Below, in pieces: positions 3,064 through 23,841 of a stretch of DNA of 24,392 nt. Source of the DNA: a virus; IMG/VR virus record IMGVR_UViG_3300025669_000186, positions 1-24,392 of that record; one strand, written 5' to 3'. The notes under the pieces were generated by a model. That model worked only from the letters and a program-made list of their open reading frames with translations, made no database searches and was not told the origin of the DNA. Made by a program: the position numbers and the translations under genes. How positions within the stretch are numbered: the stretch's first letter is position 1; each line of letters starts with the position of its first letter.

Positions 3064-4340
3064 TGCTTAACCTCCGCATAGTTCTCGTAATGATTCTTCC
3101 TCCAGATTAGCTTGATGGCCGGCGCCGGACCTAACTGCCGATTCTTGGCCATCTTGATTTCGAGGATACCAGGCTCAGGGGTGTTGTCATTGTAATACTC
3201 ATCCCTGTAAAGCAACAAGGCGATGTCGGCATCCTCTTCGAGGCTCCCGCTTTCTCTGAAGTCTGATACCCGGGGCCGCCGGTTATCATCTGCGCGGTGT
3301 TCTAATCCCCGGTTAAGCTGACTGCATCCTATCACTGTAATATCTAGCTCCTTGGCTATAGCCTTCATGGTTTTACTAGCACCTGAGACAGCCTGGTGCA
3401 TATTCTGTGACGTGCGGCACTCCTTGAATAACTGGATATAATCGACTACCATGAAATCAAGCCCGTGATCTTCCTTGATCCTGCGAGCGCAACTTGCTAC
3501 CTGGGCTGATGTGCTATCCCTGAAATCGTAGAATAAAGGCCGCGCTTCGACCTTCCCTGCCAGTGTCATAATCTCTCCCCACTTGTCCTCGGATATCGTA
3601 TTGTGCCTTAATTCCCTAACAGTCACATCATACAGCTTGGCTACCTCGCGCTCGAGCAACCCCATCAGGTCCATCTCCAGGGATACAAACAACCCTTTCA
3701 ACCCTTTACTAACCAGCTTTAACGCTACCTCAAAGACTATCTGCGACTTACCCATCGATGGCCTACCACCAACAATAATCCAGTTCTGTCGGTATAGCCC
3801 TGCGGTGATTCTATCCAGATCAACAAACCCCCAGGATGAAGCTAACTTATTGGCCTTCGCTTCGTCAACGTAATCAATCAATCTCTGGGCTGCTTGCTTG
3901 GGGGTAACTATCCCGGTGTTCTTTACCGCGCTATCCCGCAAGGTCTTTATTAGGCTAACGGCAGTATCTAAATCGTGTTCTACATTACCGGAATCAAGCT
4001 CACTTATTTTCTGTGCTTCCTGCATCAACTGCCTCTGTAAATGAGTCTTGCGGACTATCTCGGCATAATGTTCTGCATCTAGCGAGGTGGGGGTATTGGC
4101 TATTAAATGGCTGAGGTAAGCAGCCCCGCCACACTTGTCCAGCACCCCCATGTCGGATAGCTGTTGTGCCACGGTAATCTGGTTTATCTTAATAACAGCA
4201 CGACACGCCTCATATATCCAGCGTGTTCTTTCTCCGTTGAACTCCTCCGGCAAAAGGTCTATTAGTTCCAGGCAACCACCGTCTATTAAAAGACTACCGA
4301 TTACCGCTTCTTCTGCTTCGGTGTTATAGGCTGTTTTCAT
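3060..4340 (-). CDS. dnaB: DnaB-like replicative DNA helicase
   Basis: The phage hexameric 5'-3' replicative helicase, 426 aa, close to the usual DnaB length. The N-terminal DnaB domain (AEEAVIGSLLID onwards, residues 8-105) is followed by a linker and the RecA-like motor from about 165. Walker A is GGRPSMGKS (191-199), Walker B is FMVVDY (296-301), motif III-like GCSQLNR is at 338-344, and the family signature SDFRESGSLEEDADI is at 359-373. It is coupled by ATGA overlap to the helicase-methyltransferase gene upstream and shares an operon with the replication initiator, which probably loads it because no separate loader is visible. Confidence 0.96.
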   Translation of the reverse strand: MKTAYNTEAEEAVIGSLLIDGGCLELIDLLPEEFNGERTRWIYEACRAVIKINQITVAQQLSDMGVLDKCGGAAYLSHLIANTPTSLDAEHYAEIVRKTHLQRQLMQEAQKISELDSGNVEHDLDTAVSLIKTLRDSAVKNTGIVTPKQAAQRLIDYVDEAKANKLASSWGFVDLDRITAGLYRQNWIIVGGRPSMGKSQIVFEVALKLVSKGLKGLFVSLEMDLMGLLEREVAKLYDVTVRELRHNTISEDKWGEIMTLAGKVEARPLFYDFRDSTSAQVASCARRIKEDHGLDFMVVDYIQLFKECRTSQNMHQAVSGASKTMKAIAKELDITVIGCSQLNRGLEHRADDNRRPRVSDFRESGSLEEDADIALLLYRDEYYNDNTPEPGILEIKMAKNRQLGPAPAIKLIWRKNHYENYAEVKQ

Positions 4341-6595
4341 ATTAATAATTTCGCACCCACTTCATTCTCCGCACGCATTAAATTTTTAACGGCTACATTA
4401 TAATATTCCTGTTTTAATTCGATTAGTATCGCTTTGCGATTCAATTTAAGCGCCATAAATGCCTCACTCCCTATACCCCCAAATGGGGACAATACGGTCT
4501 CCCCAGGATTAGAATAAAGTTTAATACACCTTTCAATAGTGCCTAATTGCAAAGGGCAAATGTGCTTTTCATCATCAACGCCCCTGGCTCGATAACATTG
4601 CAATGTCTCAGTTTCTCGGATTCCTATCCAAATGCCATGCGCCCATTCTATCCATGTCTCGTTGTCTAGTTCTCCATTGCCTACCGGATTAATGGGAATT
4701 GCATTATCCCCTGGCTTTTTGAATATTAGTACCTGGTCAATTAACGCGGGCCGGGAATCCGCCGAGTCCCTGCGCAATTGCACAAAAAGCAATGCCTTGC
4801 TCTTAACTCGTATGGCTTGCGCTTGTGGGTTCTTTTGAACAAAAGCACGCCCACTAAATATCCACCCTTCTTTCTCATATGCCCTAATAACCTCGCCGGG
4901 GAAATCCTTGATTCCTATATATCCATCTTTCTGCGCCAATGCAGGTATATCCGATGTATGGACGCAAGTAAGGCGGCCAGGCTTAGTTACCCTTAACACG
5001 CCCTGAATAACAAAAGCGTAATGACGAAAGAACTCTATCCATCCACTACAATTACCTAAATCCCTATCACTGGCAGTATATGTGAACAAGTCGGCAAATG
5101 GGGGGGAATAAACAGATAGGTCCACGCTATCTGGATCCAACTCATCCATGCGTTGGCAACTATCCCCTAGCTTGGCAATCCAATTGGATCCAGTTGATTC
5201 ATCCTCTATATAATCGACAGTTATATTGCTTGATAACCCCAATTCAACCTCCTCATATTTCCTTATTTGTTCTATAAGTTTAGTTCTTAATCTGTGGGCG
5301 AGTGCATCCTTGCGCATAACATTGTAATATATCTCTGCCTCCGCCTCCGAGATAATGATAAAAACATTAACGGGTTCTGTTTGCCCATAGCGATATTGCC
5401 TTCGAATAGCTTGATAGTATGACTCCCACGAATCGTTAATACCCAAGAAAACCATATTGTGTGCATTCTGAAAATTCATCCCAAACCCTCCAATCTTGGG
5501 TTTAGTAATCAATACCGAGAACTTCCCATCTTGGAAATCCTCAAACGACTTTACCTTGTACTCGGGATTATCATTCCCCTTAACCTCAACAGCATCAGGG
5601 AATAATCTTGATGCACCATTACTCTCATTGTCTAATCCAGTCCATATTATCCACTGGGCCCCGTCCTCTTTAATAACTGATTTAAGGCAATCCAATCTAG
5701 GCAATAGCGAGGATTGTCTAGCTTTAACTCTATCAGTAATCCCATGTAGACCAGTAAAAAATAAATGGTCTCCTCTATATTCAGTTTTTACAAAAATAGG
5801 GGTTATCTTTAATTCGGGCAGAATAAAACCATCATCTTCGTATCCTAAATCAGATGGCTTGGTCATAGTCATGGCCCACGAAGATAGCCACTCGAAAAAT
5901 CGATCTTCAGCATGATGCTTCAATCTCCATTCGGTTCCCCCCTTATTGGTCCCCTTCTTGCGGTATGAGTTAATACCAAAATGGAGAGTGTGTTCTTTAT
6001 TGGCATTAACGAAGAAAGTGGCCAGCATCACAGGGACGCTACATATTCCCAAAAACTCAGCGTGGTTGCCAATCTCTGTATAATCGTTGGGGGCAGGTGT
6101 AGCAGTACAACACAATTTATATGGGATAGATGCACATAATGCCGTTAGCTTCTTACGAGTTTTGCCAGTAATGGCCTTTAGGATACTGGATTCATCTAGC
6201 ACCACGGCTTTAAATTGACTAAAATCAAACTCATCTACCATTTCATAGTTTGTAATCCATATCCCGTTGTGTGTTATGTCACATTGATGACGTACATACA
6301 CCACGTCTACCCCTATCTTGCGGGCCTCTCGTACTGTCTGCCTTGCCACGGATAACGGGGCAATTATTAATGTATTCTCATTCATTAACCTCGCCCATTC
6401 TAATTGAATAAATGTTTTGCCCAAACCAGTGTCAAGGAATACAGCACACCTACCTTTGTGTATCGCCCACAACACAATGTCTTTTTGCCAGCTAAACAAC
6501 TGGTCATGCACCCCATCCAACACGCTGATTTTACCAACAGAATCAACTTTTTGATACTTAGTCTGTAAGAAATCTTCGTAGTTAGAATTCACCAT
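4337..6595 (-). CDS. SNF2-type helicase fused to a beta-class DNA methyltransferase
   Basis: A 752-aa two-part enzyme. Residues about 30-440 are a superfamily 2 (SNF2-like) ATPase with motif I DTGLGKT (55-61), motif II LDESS (133-137; DESS instead of DEAH), motif III CTATPAP (163-169), motif V GFGMNFQNA (370-378) and motif VI QAIRRQYRYGQ (395-405). Residues about 470-750 are a DNA amino-methyltransferase with catalytic SPPF (497-500) before the AdoMet motif LSPFGGIGS (702-710), the order of the beta class; SPPF is often seen in N4-cytosine enzymes but N6-adenine is possible. No nuclease domain is present, so it probably protects or marks phage DNA while moving along it. The ATG overlaps the initiator gene by 7 bases; GTG at 6592 would give a GTGA overlap. 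Confidence 0.9.
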   Translation of the reverse strand: MVNSNYEDFLQTKYQKVDSVGKISVLDGVHDQLFSWQKDIVLWAIHKGRCAVFLDTGLGKTFIQLEWARLMNENTLIIAPLSVARQTVREARKIGVDVVYVRHQCDITHNGIWITNYEMVDEFDFSQFKAVVLDESSILKAITGKTRKKLTALCASIPYKLCCTATPAPNDYTEIGNHAEFLGICSVPVMLATFFVNANKEHTLHFGINSYRKKGTNKGGTEWRLKHHAEDRFFEWLSSWAMTMTKPSDLGYEDDGFILPELKITPIFVKTEYRGDHLFFTGLHGITDRVKARQSSLLPRLDCLKSVIKEDGAQWIIWTGLDNESNGASRLFPDAVEVKGNDNPEYKVKSFEDFQDGKFSVLITKPKIGGFGMNFQNAHNMVFLGINDSWESYYQAIRRQYRYGQTEPVNVFIIISEAEAEIYYNVMRKDALAHRLRTKLIEQIRKYEEVELGLSSNITVDYIEDESTGSNWIAKLGDSCQRMDELDPDSVDLSVYSPPFADLFTYTASDRDLGNCSGWIEFFRHYAFVIQGVLRVTKPGRLTCVHTSDIPALAQKDGYIGIKDFPGEVIRAYEKEGWIFSGRAFVQKNPQAQAIRVKSKALLFVQLRRDSADSRPALIDQVLIFKKPGDNAIPINPVGNGELDNETWIEWAHGIWIGIRETETLQCYRARGVDDEKHICPLQLGTIERCIKLYSNPGETVLSPFGGIGSEAFMALKLNRKAILIELKQEYYNVAVKNLMRAENEVGAKLLI

Positions 6596-11979: not shown

Positions 11980-13956
11980 TTATGCTGCTGCCAAAAGGTA
12001 ATCATGTTGTTTCTGTATTCCGTTTAGTTGGGTTAATGTATCAGCGACATTCCTGGTCACATTGGCTAGTTCAATCATCATAATCGAAGGGTCAAGTTCT
12101 AGCTTAGGGTGTTCAATCCATACCACTATAGCTGAGACATCTATGCCTAAATCCTCATCTATCACAGTGACGGTGGATCCCAACTGCAGGGCATCGAAGT
12201 CAAACCCATCATGAGCGGATAAGTCGATACTGTTTATCCGGTAAGAAATAACCGGGGCGCTGTGGTCTGCCAGCAATTCGTTGGCCCACTCCAGCAGGGT
12301 AGCAGAGGAAGCAATAGAGAAATTTATGAATGAGCCGATGTAGATTCCCCCCCAGGTAGCCTGTGATGTTGCGTCCTCTACATAATCATTGGTCTGTATT
12401 GTGCTAAGTTCGATACGTTTACCAGTAGCGGCATTATAACCATAGGCATAAATGCGGTTGAATAATTGGTTGTAGTCAACCTCGCGCTCGATGTCTATTA
12501 AATTCTTGCCATATCTAATCTGCTGCCCCTTGTCCTCTCCGATTGTTACGCTCCATTGTAATAGGCGATTATTGTCAACCTCGATATAACCACCGACCAT
12601 AGCCTGGAGGGAAAGCAACACCCCGAGGATGGACGAGCTACCGGTGCGGATATTACGAACTAGATTTACATAGGTGGGGGCTATTGTTCCTTTGGTAATG
12701 GCAGGGGTTTGCATCGTATAAGCAAGGAGGTCGTCAATTATTTCGTCTATTGTGTCAAAGGTTGAATACTTAAAGACGGTTTCAGTTGTTGCCCCTCCGA
12801 TAAAGACGCTATCATCATCCAGCGCCATGTCATAAATGATACCACCATAATCCGTGCCTTCATCAACTAAAGTCATATCAGAAGTGAGATATCTCCTGAC
12901 TTTATTGGTGGTTGCCCCACCAGCATATAGATAAATCCCGTCTGCTGATAATTTTACCACATGGATTGTGCCCCCATAGGCAGGGGTCTGGTCCACATAA
13001 GCCAATGTTGTCTTGAGGTATTGGCTTACCTTTTCAGTTGTAGACCCTCCCGCATAAAGATAGGTGTTATCTATAGTAATACCCCTAATAATACCGCCAT
13101 AGTCAGCAGTCTGGTCTACATAAGCCATGGTTGCCTTAAGATACCTATTTACCTTATCAGTGGTTTGTCCTCCTACATAAATATGAGTGTCATCTACTGC
13201 GATACTATATGGATTGCCCCCATAGGCAGCAGTTTGGCTCACATAAGCCATAGTTGATTTTAGGTACTTGTTTACTTTTTCGGTGACAGCTCCTCCTACA
13301 TAAAGATGAGTGTCGTCTACAGCTAGGGTATAGATTCCACCACCATAGTCGGCAGTTTGATCCACATAGGCCATAGTCGACTTGAGGTATCGACTTACCT
13401 TATCAGTGGTTTGCCCCCCCACATAAATATGAGTGTCATCTACTGCGATGTGAGATATATACCCACCATAACCAACGGTTTGATCCACATAGGCCATGGT
13501 TGATTTCAGATATCGCCTTACCCTTTCGGTAGTTCCTCCTCCTACATAAATATGGGTGTCATCCTCGACAATGGCACTAATTGTCCCGCCATAACCAACT
13601 GTTGCACTCCGGTAGATAAGATTCACCCCGACATCATAATCCATAACCATGCTTGTGGCCAGTTGAGACATATAGTCCATGGCCTCTACCCGGGTTGTGA
13701 TTTTATCACCGTCCCTGATATCCCACTTCTTTTGCAGCCGGAACTTTTTTATAACAGTGTCAGTATCGTAATTCCTCAGCCATAGTTCATCAGCCAGGGT
13801 TACATCAGCCAACTTACTGTCATCGCTTGGGAGCAGAAAAGACAAGGTGTGCGCTGCATTGACTTTCTGAGTGTAATTGATACTACTGGCGTTTTCTAAT
13901 ATAGAGATGAGATCGCCCGAAGTATCTCGCACCTCAACGATGTATGGTATTGTCAT
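11980..13956 (-). CDS. Tail hub / tail-associated protein (gp37-like) with an inserted seven-repeat propeller-like domain
   Basis: A 658-aa tail tip protein of the Siphovirus gp37-like/Tal type, which forms the hub below Dit. Residues 1-115 and 400-658 are the hub parts (YIVEVRDTSGDLISILENA; RVEAMDYMSQL; LLSLQAMVGGYIEVD; IDIEREVDYNQLFNRIYAYG). Between them, residues 121-400 hold seven repeats of 41-43 residues, each with YGG, a VDDTHIYVGG-like strand, TTDKV.RYLKSTMAYVDQT, fitting a seven-bladed beta-propeller. The ATG overlaps the Dit stop as TAATG. There is no lytic or peptidase domain at the C-terminus. The insert may bind a host receptor; this is inferred from position and fold type. Confidence 0.85.
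   Translation of the reverse strand: MTIPYIVEVRDTSGDLISILENASSINYTQKVNAAHTLSFLLPSDDSKLADVTLADELWLRNYDTDTVIKKFRLQKKWDIRDGDKITTRVEAMDYMSQLATSMVMDYDVGVNLIYRSATVGYGGTISAIVEDDTHIYVGGGTTERVRRYLKSTMAYVDQTVGYGGYISHIAVDDTHIYVGGQTTDKVSRYLKSTMAYVDQTADYGGGIYTLAVDDTHLYVGGAVTEKVNKYLKSTMAYVSQTAAYGGNPYSIAVDDTHIYVGGQTTDKVNRYLKATMAYVDQTADYGGIIRGITIDNTYLYAGGSTTEKVSQYLKTTLAYVDQTPAYGGTIHVVKLSADGIYLYAGGATTNKVRRYLTSDMTLVDEGTDYGGIIYDMALDDDSVFIGGATTETVFKYSTFDTIDEIIDDLLAYTMQTPAITKGTIAPTYVNLVRNIRTGSSSILGVLLSLQAMVGGYIEVDNNRLLQWSVTIGEDKGQQIRYGKNLIDIEREVDYNQLFNRIYAYGYNAATGKRIELSTIQTNDYVEDATSQATWGGIYIGSFINFSIASSATLLEWANELLADHSAPVISYRINSIDLSAHDGFDFDALQLGSTVTVIDEDLGIDVSAIVVWIEHPKLELDPSIMMIELANVTRNVADTLTQLNGIQKQHDYLLAAA
12757..13596 (-). 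repeat. Seven in-frame ~123-bp repeats coding the propeller-like insert
   Basis: Repeat units start at residues 121, 162, 203, 244, 285, 326 and 369 of the tail hub protein. The first six begin exactly 41 residues (123 bp) apart; the last step is 43 residues. Units 2 and 4 share long identical DNA stretches, for example around 13160-13195 and 13420-13450. The last unit is the most diverged. Confidence 0.85.
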
Positions 13957-19438: not shown

Positions 19439-19927
19439 TTATGTGATTATCCGTTTTAGTTCTGCTTTGAGCGCTCGATTTTCCTCTTGAAGTTGCTTTA
19501 TCTTACTTTCGAGCAATGTCAGGGATTTATGCCCCAAGTCCATTATTAGCTGTAGATTCCCAAGCCGATTGTCATCTCTAATCCCATTTTTGTGGTGGAT
19601 AAGTTCCCAAGGGTGTAATAACCTGCCGAGATGTTTTGCCATTACAAGGCGATGTTCAGAAACTAATCCCCTACTGGTAGCCATGTGTCTAAAAAAGTCA
19701 GTAGGCGATACCCATATTAAAATATATCCATTAGAAGCCTTGGATCTACCACCCCTCCAAGCTGGGCTATTTGCTCCGGTGCGTAGATTTCTAGCACAAG
19801 CATCACATCTTGGGTTCTGGGGTTCCCCCCTTTTTAACCATACCCATCGGGCTTGCCCACAGTCAAGACAGGCACAATAACCCTGTTTATGCGTGCCTGT
19901 CTTTCTAATGTCGCCTATCTCTGGCAC
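19439..19927 (-). CDS. HNH endonuclease, homing-type
   Basis: A 162-aa endonuclease with an N-terminal zinc ribbon (C18, C20, C23 and C41-x2-C44), a GANSPAWRGGR motif, a strand region (GYILIWVSPTDFF) and the HNH core EHRLVMAKHLGR...ELIHHKNGIRDDNRLGNLQL, with H-H and N-x8-N positions intact. It ends in a short coiled coil (SKIKQLQEENRALKAELKR). The start is GTG with GGAGG 8 bases upstream. It stands alone between two tail genes and does not break either one, typical of a free-standing homing endonuclease. Confidence 0.88.
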   Translation of the reverse strand: MPEIGDIRKTGTHKQGYCACLDCGQARWVWLKRGEPQNPRCDACARNLRTGANSPAWRGGRSKASNGYILIWVSPTDFFRHMATSRGLVSEHRLVMAKHLGRLLHPWELIHHKNGIRDDNRLGNLQLIMDLGHKSLTLLESKIKQLQEENRALKAELKRIIT

Positions 19928-21086: not shown

Positions 21087-21409
21087 TCTCCCTCCAAATC
21101 CATCTCGGCCCAGGTCAAAACAGGTGAGTTAGATTCCACCCCACGGAGATGTAGTGCTAATTTGGTCATCTTGTCAGATGCCTTTTGGGTGTAGGAGTAA
21201 TCCCCTATCTTCTCGCCATCGGCATTCGCCACATACTTAGCGGCCCAGGCTTCCAGCGCATCGGCGGCTGCTAGGTTAATACTGTTTGAATTCTCAGTCA
21301 GGAAATAGGTTAGTTCCTCGTCTGTGAATACAGAATCGGTGGTGTCTGTATCGCTTATCTTCAGCCGTACTTTGCCGACTAGGGTAGTGATATCATAAGT
21401 TACTGTCAT
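21083..21409 (-). CDS. Head-tail adaptor (gp6-like connector)
   Basis: A 108-aa protein starting MTVTYDITTLVGKVRLKISD, with FTDEELTYFLTENSNSINLA and AADALEAWAAKY, the helical pattern of phage connector proteins that dock below the portal. The ATG at 21409 overlaps the upstream stop as ATGA, and AAGGAGG lies 8 bases before it. It belongs to the connector set with the next three genes. Confidence 0.86.
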   Translation of the reverse strand: MTVTYDITTLVGKVRLKISDTDTTDSVFTDEELTYFLTENSNSINLAAADALEAWAAKYVANADGEKIGDYSYTQKASDKMTKLALHLRGVESNSPVLTWAEMDLEGD

Positions 21410-23841
21410 TCGCAAGTCCTCCTTCTGCGCCAGTGGGATATCCGGCCCGCATCCAATCGAGAGGATGCCATCCGTCCTATAGCTACTCTCGCTATCTCCC
21501 GCAGCACCCGGCAGTAGTGTATAATTACCGATACTGTAAGGTTGGCCGAGGTCGATACTTTATATGCGAACCTCTTAGTTACGGTAGCAGAGATAATTAG
21601 GTTGGCAGCCAAGCTAACCGTGTATCTATGTATACCAGTTATGACCATGCTGATTGATGTGGTTAATCCAGTGCTAGTTGCCCGTACATGAGTCATTGCC
21701 CTGCTTATAGTTGTTGAAGCCGTAAGCCCCGGAGAGGTTGACCTGACGTAAGCCAAGACACGATTAACTGTTGCCGATACAGCAAGACCGGCGCTTGTGG
21801 TTATCTTCGTTCCCCAAGTTCTTAGTAATGAAACTGAGGCGGTCAAGTTGGCGGCTAAGCCCCTGGTATAAGTAACCGTCCTATCAACGGTTGCCGATAC
21901 GGAAAGTGCGGTATCAGTTATTATAGTCCACGCACTCTTAATGGTAATGCTAACTGCTACAGTCAGTCCAGGTGCGGTTGTCCGTACAAAAGCCAATATC
22001 CTATCAATGGTTGCCGCTATGGTTAAGTTGGCAGAGGTAATAATCGTTCTACTCCGGCTTTTGAGGATTGTAGTTGCCACGGTCAGATTAGCAGATGTGA
22101 CGATTGCTATTCCCCAACTCTTGAGTATGGACACTGCCACGGTTAAGCCTGGGGTTGTTGCTCTGGTATAAGTCATTACTCTACTGATTGCCGCCGATAC
22201 GGTAAGAGCAGCAGCTAAGGCTATATCATAATTCTTGCCCGCAAAAATAGCAACCGAAACTATCAGATTTGATATGGTTGCTCTCGTGTAGGTCACGACC
22301 CGATCTATAGTCGCGGATATACTTAATGCAGTAGAAGTAATAATTGTCCGGTTCCTGCTAAAAGCCACACTAACCGCAGCCGTCAAGTCAGCAGAGGTTA
22401 ATCTTGTATAGGTCACGACCCGATCTATAGTCGCGGATATACTTAATGCAGTAGAAGTAATAATTGTTCGGTTCCTGCTAAAAGCCACACTAACCGCAGC
22501 CGTCAAGTCAGCAGAGGTTAATCTTGTATAGGTCATGGCCAGGGATATAGTCTCAGCTATTGTTAAACCCGGGGATGTTGCCCTATCCCAAGCAGCCTTA
22601 TAAGCTACAGTTGCGGAAACAGTCAGTCCTGGGGATGTAGATATAGGATAGTTTACTGGTGGTGGTGCAGTATCACAAACCAATCCCCAAAAAACGAGAT
22701 TAAGTTGTGGCGTTCCAGATGGGACACACATAATTCCTACAGAGTCATCATCTGATATAGATATTGTATGAGCGGTATCGTTCCCTGTTAAATCCGTATC
22801 GGATATTGTAACCGCTAGTCCGCTGGCAGGTGATGCGCCCTCTTGCCTTATTGTAACCGTGTTAGATTTACCAGCCCCTGGTTCACGCCACAAGGCTACA
22901 TAAAACTTCTTAAATATACACTCCTGGACTAACTGGTATCTCTGGGCTTCTGTGGATGTCCAAGCGGAAACGGAGGCGTGAAGCCAGGGGGTAAGATAAT
23001 GGTATTCAGTGTCGGTAGTATTTGTTCCGTTGTTAGAACCACCCCATATTACACTCTCCCCATCTGTATCCGCCTCAAAGGTCATCCCCATACACACAGC
23101 CGTAGACACTGATGGGCTATTGAGGGGTTCACACGCCACAGTTAGCAAGTCACCTGCCGCTACCGTAACCTCATGTGCAGTATCATTCCCAGACACATCA
23201 TCAGCAGTGATTGTACAAGTTAAAGTTGTATCAGAACCATTCTTTCGTAGTGTAAATTTATATGCGTCTGGGGCAGTCCCTGGGTCTGCCGTCATTTGCA
23301 CATACAAGTCTTTGATTTTACCTGCGGTTGGGCAAACTGATACAGCTTGGTATTCTGTTCCATAATAACCTGGTCTACCAATGGCTTTATAGTATGTGGA
23401 TGAGTTGCCAAGCCATCCATAAGGGCATAAGATTAAACTTTCGTTAGCATTATCACCCTCAAACTCCATTGTCCACCGAGCATAACGAGCATTATCGGGA
23501 GAATCGGGATTACACTCCAAACAAATCCAATCGCCAGCAGCAACTGAAACATCGTGTGCCGTATCAGATGCCACAGTTCCATCAGCGGCTACTGTACAGG
23601 TTAATGTAGTATTAGCAAAAGCACCCTCGCCTACAGCCCTGTGCAGAGTAAACGTATAAGTCCCTGTCCCTGGCACACCATCTAATTCCACACGGAGATT
23701 ACGAAGAGTGCCTGGGTTGGTAACAACACCAGCTTTTGATAAAACGACAGTATCCCAACTTAAGCCGCTAGAGATAACATTATATTCCGTAGTGGAGACA
23801 TGCAGCAGGTTATAAAACCCACCTACTATTATCTGTCTCAT
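21406..23841 (-). CDS. Large repeat protein: three jelly-roll-like modules plus a 20-residue solenoid
   Basis: An 811-aa structural protein with no close family recognised. Residues about 1-137, 138-266 and 272-392 are three related beta modules that share SDTAH or NDTAH, then a VAAGD-like turn and a C-x-P strand (for example TAHEVTVAAGDLLTVACEPL). Residues 401-780 are nineteen repeats of 20 residues, T-S-x-x-L-T-V-S-A-T-I-x-R-x-x-T-Y-T-R in consensus, alternating in pairs of 40. The last 35 residues are Arg-rich. ATGA overlap joins it to the zinc-ribbon gene upstream. Located in the head-connector block, it may be a head fibre, decoration or adhesin; the role is unknown. Confidence 0.8.
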   Translation of the reverse strand: MRQIIVGGFYNLLHVSTTEYNVISSGLSWDTVVLSKAGVVTNPGTLRNLRVELDGVPGTGTYTFTLHRAVGEGAFANTTLTCTVAADGTVASDTAHDVSVAAGDWICLECNPDSPDNARYARWTMEFEGDNANESLILCPYGWLGNSSTYYKAIGRPGYYGTEYQAVSVCPTAGKIKDLYVQMTADPGTAPDAYKFTLRKNGSDTTLTCTITADDVSGNDTAHEVTVAAGDLLTVACEPLNSPSVSTAVCMGMTFEADTDGESVIWGGSNNGTNTTDTEYHYLTPWLHASVSAWTSTEAQRYQLVQECIFKKFYVALWREPGAGKSNTVTIRQEGASPASGLAVTISDTDLTGNDTAHTISISDDDSVGIMCVPSGTPQLNLVFWGLVCDTAPPPVNYPISTSPGLTVSATVAYKAAWDRATSPGLTIAETISLAMTYTRLTSADLTAAVSVAFSRNRTIITSTALSISATIDRVVTYTRLTSADLTAAVSVAFSRNRTIITSTALSISATIDRVVTYTRATISNLIVSVAIFAGKNYDIALAAALTVSAAISRVMTYTRATTPGLTVAVSILKSWGIAIVTSANLTVATTILKSRSRTIITSANLTIAATIDRILAFVRTTAPGLTVAVSITIKSAWTIITDTALSVSATVDRTVTYTRGLAANLTASVSLLRTWGTKITTSAGLAVSATVNRVLAYVRSTSPGLTASTTISRAMTHVRATSTGLTTSISMVITGIHRYTVSLAANLIISATVTKRFAYKVSTSANLTVSVIIHYCRVLREIARVAIGRMASSRLDAGRISHWRRRRTCE
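21502..22641 (-). repeat. Nineteen tandem 60-bp coding repeats
   Basis: The DNA has an exact 60-bp period across 1.1 kb, each unit coding a 20-residue repeat. Neighbouring units alternate (ending TYTR or RTI), giving a 120-bp higher-order unit. Two adjacent 120-bp units (22291-22410 and 22411-22530) differ at only one base, so they copied recently. Confidence 0.9.

Follow-up and report, generated by a model that had tools for sequence, protein, structure and literature searches.

The window analysed here is the whole 24,392-nt stretch of virus record IMGVR_UViG_3300025669_000186. Its tail genes follow one another in the order tape measure, distal tail protein (Dit) and Tal, and the Tal gene contains the inserted domain that is the subject of this work (Table 1).

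Table 1. Coordinates of the tail genes, hub domains and propeller repeats in the window.
Feature	Position	Strand	Basis
Tape measure protein, 907 aa	14749..17472	-	phrog_13339 E=3.9e-108
Dit (distal tail protein), 248 aa	13956..14702	-	phrog_33 E=7.3e-18, phrog_202 E=2.1e-14
Tail hub (Tal / gp27-like) gene, 658 aa, next after the Dit gene	11980..13956	-	PF06605, PHROG tail families, wider family profile against PDB 3gs9
Hub residues 1-106, domain D1 (first tube domain); last strand and helix 85-101, hairpin turn 83-84	13639..13956	-	Alignment, model secondary structure
Inserted domain, hub residues 108-400; 293 aa in place of ~4 aa of insert-free relatives	12757..13635	-	Homologue alignments, gap measurement
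Repeat 1 (residues 116-156)	13489..13611	-	Self-comparison, blade alignment
Closing strand d0, hub residues 118-121 (model strand 12-15), predicted to complete the last blade (velcro)	13594..13605	-	AlphaFold model
Repeat 2 (157-197)	13366..13488	-	Self-comparison, blade alignment
Repeat 3 (198-238)	13243..13365	-	Self-comparison, blade alignment
Repeat 4 (239-279)	13120..13242	-	Self-comparison, blade alignment
Repeat 5 (280-320)	12997..13119	-	Self-comparison, blade alignment
Repeat 6 (321-363, 43 aa)	12868..12996	-	Self-comparison, blade alignment
Repeat 7 (364-404); own strands a, b and c only, the fourth being d0	12745..12867	-	Self-comparison, blade alignment, model
Remainder of hub, residues 401-658 (second tube domain, PF06605)	11983..12756	-	ORF and Pfam

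The window protein is a gp27-like/Tal hub of a siphovirus-like phage, as supported by several computational comparisons. Pfam family PF06605 (Prophage_tail) matches residues 441-644 with 89.2 bits against a curated cut-off of 31.3 (E=4.4e-25), while PF18994, a family of N-terminal domains, stays below threshold at residues 9-50 (18.2 bits, cut-off 23.6). The PHROG matches of the hub are tail families. The N-terminal D1 domain aligns with 11 D1 modules, and its strands are confidently predicted, with pLDDT values of 80-93 across most of the domain in the full-length model. PDB sequence searches with the hub alone or the insert alone returned no useful match; only a wider profile of fused hubs, built from relatives and isolates, reached PDB entry 3gs9 (E=1.2e-6), and also 9m7n. 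The families and the 3gs9 match lead us to reject the initial annotation's description of the hub as gp37-like. Entry 3gs9 is the Tal of Listeria phage A118 (gp18). It shares the hub family with the window protein by profile but lacks the insert, the site of which corresponds to approximately residues 104-109 of 3gs9.

The hub ends without a fibre or lysin extension after residues 401-658. Judging by its length, the Dit is probably of the plain type, with no binding module inserted. A scan of genome contigs found no relative and therefore pointed to no host.

The insert interrupts the hub rather than extending its C-terminus, as initially annotated, and its flanks align with insert-free homologues on either side of residues 108-400. 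The earlier span of 12757-13596 (residues 121-400) is correct at its C-terminal border, while the homologue alignment moves the N-terminal border to residue 108. At the junction, the insert-free relative L006 reads MIITEIETQDLASQLAKETITSYEAEDATVATIVSALLAFQ, where the window reads ITTRVEAMDYMSQLATSMVMDYD, the insert and then DTIDEIIDDLLAYTMQ. We measured the gap at this site in the fetched IMG/VR loci using short profiles of the flanking motifs. It spans 24-39 nt in 17 distinct contigs but reaches 894 nt in the window; the L002 gap is longer still, at 930 nt. The distance from D1 to the core is likewise short in more distant fused hubs (L033, L038, L043 and others), and the propeller is absent from the site in five isolated or named phages, such as Bacillus phage vB_BhaS-171 and Geobacillus phage TP-84. 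A tblastn search of 50,697 phage records returned no match for either the window or the L002 insert.

L002 is the only relative that carries an insert at the site, a diverged propeller again composed of seven repeats. The two inserts align end to end with 34-36% identity (E=2e-52), compared to 52% for the C-terminal part of the hub; between the window and L002, the insert diverges faster than the hub core. The propeller is an optional part of the hub family, located in the loop between D1 and the remaining hub, as supported by these computations.

The seven repeats of about 41 residues recognized initially are readily recovered. Residues 116-404 comprise seven YGG-anchored repeats starting at residues 116, 157, 198, 239, 280, 321 and 364, with a period of exactly 41 residues except for the sixth, which has 43. 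Autocorrelation at an offset of 41 gives +2.50 BLOSUM units per residue, far above the maximum of 500 shuffles (-0.17). Eight columns are invariant across all seven blades (Y7, G8, G9, G24, G25, T28, V31 and Y34 of the unit). At the DNA level, Tandem Repeats Finder (TRF) calls with periods of 123 and 246 span positions 12974-13603.

Protein identity between blades ranges from 32 to 78%, while 161 of 253 comparisons at fourfold-degenerate sites differ (64%), which is near saturation. Since the synonymous divergence is this high despite protein identity of up to 78%, the repeats are old and kept alike by selection, rather than recently duplicated. GC3 is 0.38 in the insert and 0.49 in the remaining hub; this is compatible with an insert acquired from elsewhere, but proves nothing.

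The Pfam families NHL (PF01436), Kelch and WD40 gave no direct match above threshold to the insert repeats. The insert does match large proteins of other environmental phages, one of 1237 aa encoded by L004 (31% identity over 227 aa, E=3e-24) and one of 943 aa encoded by L005 (E=1e-13), both of which themselves match Pfam NHL. This indirect similarity suggests that the window repeats are related to NHL-type repeats. The L004 and L005 proteins share the repeat type with the window insert, but their propellers are part of non-hub proteins and reach the NHL threshold that the window repeats do not.

The fold of the insert was predicted with AlphaFold using hub residues 107-412 and an alignment of two sequences, in which L002 was the sole added row. 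The isolated insert model (pLDDT 83, pTM 0.84) has a strand order of d0, six times abcd, and abc, giving 28 strands. In a Foldseek search of the PDB, the best full-length matches are seven-bladed WD40-type propellers (5yzv_B, TMt 0.90), followed by the seven-bladed designer protein v13WRAP-T (TMt 0.89, rmsd 1.8). No match has a lower E-value than the eight-bladed design Tako8, yet the TM score of Tako8 is only about 0.72, with an rmsd of at least 3.5. The insert is therefore predicted to close into a seven-bladed β-propeller with its first and last strands in one blade, a fold that is well supported computationally and agrees with the initial proposal. Neither of the two outcomes that would speak against that proposal, an open fold or an insert that is normal across the family, was found when we looked for them.

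The full-length hub model is of lower quality (pLDDT 67, pTM 0.44). The alignment behind it (A7) misplaces L002 across D1 and the first two blades. D1 is confident, while blades 1-2 and the C-terminal core are poor. Foldseek matches of this model are either driven by the propeller or meaningless (TM <0.3 on the query). This mediocre model does not fix the orientation or placement of the propeller on the hub.

Insertions into tail hubs have been described before. A review defines "evolved Tals" with carbohydrate-binding modules (CBMs) within the gp27-like N-terminal domain (PMC7291167). The window hub likewise carries a foreign, binding-type module inside the gp27-like domain of a siphophage Tal, absent from its relatives. 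It is a single seven-bladed propeller instead of two CBMs, the insert matches no CBM family, and the sites are likened by description. In the Tal of phage 80alpha (gp59), Ins1 is located between the tube domains TT1 and TT2, and Ins2 in the second (PMC7048315). The window insert is similarly placed between D1 and the second tube domain, but Ins1 has an EscC-like fold; here too the sites are compared by description. The hub of RcGTA contains an oligosaccharide-binding domain within its chain (PMC7296036), which parallels the window insert but differs in fold and belongs to a different kind of particle. Given these examples, the initial view of a hub insertion as unusual was too strong. We found no report of a propeller within a tail hub in a literature search that missed most subscription papers. 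While hub insertions are known, a propeller at this position appears to be new. The propeller extends the set of modules known from phage tail hubs, the site at which contact with the host opens the tail.

We consider it probable that the hub is an evolved Tal, the seven-bladed propeller module of which binds the host surface. Judging from gp27 and Tal structures, the hub would form a trimer, which would sit under Dit and surround the tail tip with three propellers. The face formed by the d-a loops, which contain YGG, and the b-c loops, which contain GGxTT, could bind a host-surface molecule, in the manner of the binding modules found in evolved Dit and Tal proteins. The faster divergence of the insert relative to the hub core favours a role in adhesion. 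So do the different extra domains, one of them discoidin-like, in other members of the hub family, and the occurrence of the same repeat type in large proteins of other phages. Moreover, no fibre or receptor-binding protein (RBP) gene was recognized after the hub, where only small ORFs of 60-150 aa precede the replication genes, and the hub itself has no C-terminal extension. Against this reading, the window covers only 24 kb of the genome, so that a separate RBP may be encoded outside it, and the 811-aa repeat protein encoded at 21406-23841 is another candidate adhesin. Receptor binding by the propeller is also suggested by analogy. The RBP of the S. aureus phages phi11 and 80alpha contains a five-bladed propeller domain, and for an S. 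aureus phage RBP a propeller domain has been suggested to bind GlcNAc of teichoic acid (PMC7048315). There too a β-propeller is part of the host-recognition apparatus, although it has five blades rather than seven and resides in a separate RBP rather than in the hub.

It is less probable that the propeller is a docking platform within the virion, anchoring a peripheral fibre or accessory protein without contacting the host itself. Propellers commonly serve as protein-binding platforms, as do many of the WD40 proteins matched by Foldseek, and large repeat-rich proteins that possibly need an anchor exist in the window phage and its relatives. However, the insert-free relatives manage without such a dock, a fibre gene to be anchored was not recognized after the hub, and the rapid evolution of the insert compared to the core also counts against docking.

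An enzymatic propeller, such as a lyase or hydrolase clearing glycans from the cell surface, is improbable. Enzymes exist among seven-bladed propellers, but a Pfam search of the insert matched no enzyme family, and its best-conserved positions recur in each blade, a pattern that fits a scaffold better than a single set of catalytic residues. Finally, the TRF arrays of period 123 might suggest that the repeats arose by recent expansion of the DNA, or by misassembly, and have no structural role. This reading is refuted by the synonymous divergence and by the diverged seven-repeat insert at the identical site of an independent contig (L002), in addition to the open reading frame throughout and the closed predicted fold.

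The window hub, fused in one gene, is an exception among its close relatives. In 19 distinct contigs (L026-L032, L035-L037, L039-L042, L044, L045, L047, L049 and L050), two neighbouring ORFs share the hub, and the break between them lies at the turn of the last D1 hairpin. The upstream ORF ends in D1 (...KKFRLxxRDIR followed by the stop), and the next ORF opens with MIxTxIxxxxLxSQL, usually with an ATGA overlap at the junction. In the window model, the split point falls in the turn between strands 67-82 and 85-94 of a single hairpin. The D1 ORF has just 81 and 83 codons in L029 and L030, while elsewhere a longer protein, often rich in repeats, carries D1 at its C-terminal end. Fused hubs are present in the window, L033, the more distant loci and the named phages examined. 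In L002 and L011/L039, the second ORF carries long extra N-terminal segments at the D1 hairpin turn.

This arrangement suggests that the split hub consists of two chains with strand complementation, in which the last strand of D1 would be contributed by the second polypeptide. A limited literature search found no description of such a two-chain hub, and profile searches with the two halves of the split hub retrieved no relative of known structure. A -1 frameshift joining the split D1 genes was set aside, as no slippery sequence is seen by eye at the ATGA junctions and, in L017, a stop codon in frame separates the two parts.

Extra hub domains are also found at other positions, after the LSDI motif in L010, L012, L013, L015 and L017, after TIEPTWEDLSG in L016 and L018, and in L011. 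The extra domain of the L010 hub is discoidin-like (F5_F8_type_C, E=1.8e-5, slightly below its cutoff). In this family, several fixed loops of the hub accommodate differing domains, and at one of these loops the hub is even divided between two genes. Tentatively, and with somewhat less confidence than we place in host binding, the family might be regarded as a two-gene plug-in chassis. The final strand of D1 would come from a coupled gene in most close relatives, and propeller, discoidin-like and other binding modules would be exchanged at fixed loops, with the window as a fused version bearing the propeller. The family offers a tractable natural series in which to study how a tail tip acquires binding parts and still keeps its channel function.

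Several loci contain two D1 copies upstream of a single hub ORF: L015/L047 (L015 7631-7864 and 8026-8256), L045 (1096-1326 and 1473-1697) and L050 (1056-1289 and 3168-3401). The paired modules could be alternative or competing adaptors on one hub. In L002 (5397-8246), L006 and L017, upstream ORFs contain xTVxLDALL repeats of 12-14 residues and terminate in D1.

Three further ORFs of the window, all on the minus strand, merit description. An 811-aa protein encoded at 21406-23841, adjoining the head-tail connector genes, contains repeats of ~20 residues and a 120-bp tandem repeat that is 97% identical over two copies; it is possibly a second adhesin or a decoration protein. An HNH endonuclease ORF (19439-19927) separates the tail terminator gene from the tail tube gene. 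The ORF at 4337-6595 encodes a 752-aa protein in which a helicase is fused to an N6/N4 DNA methyltransferase domain.
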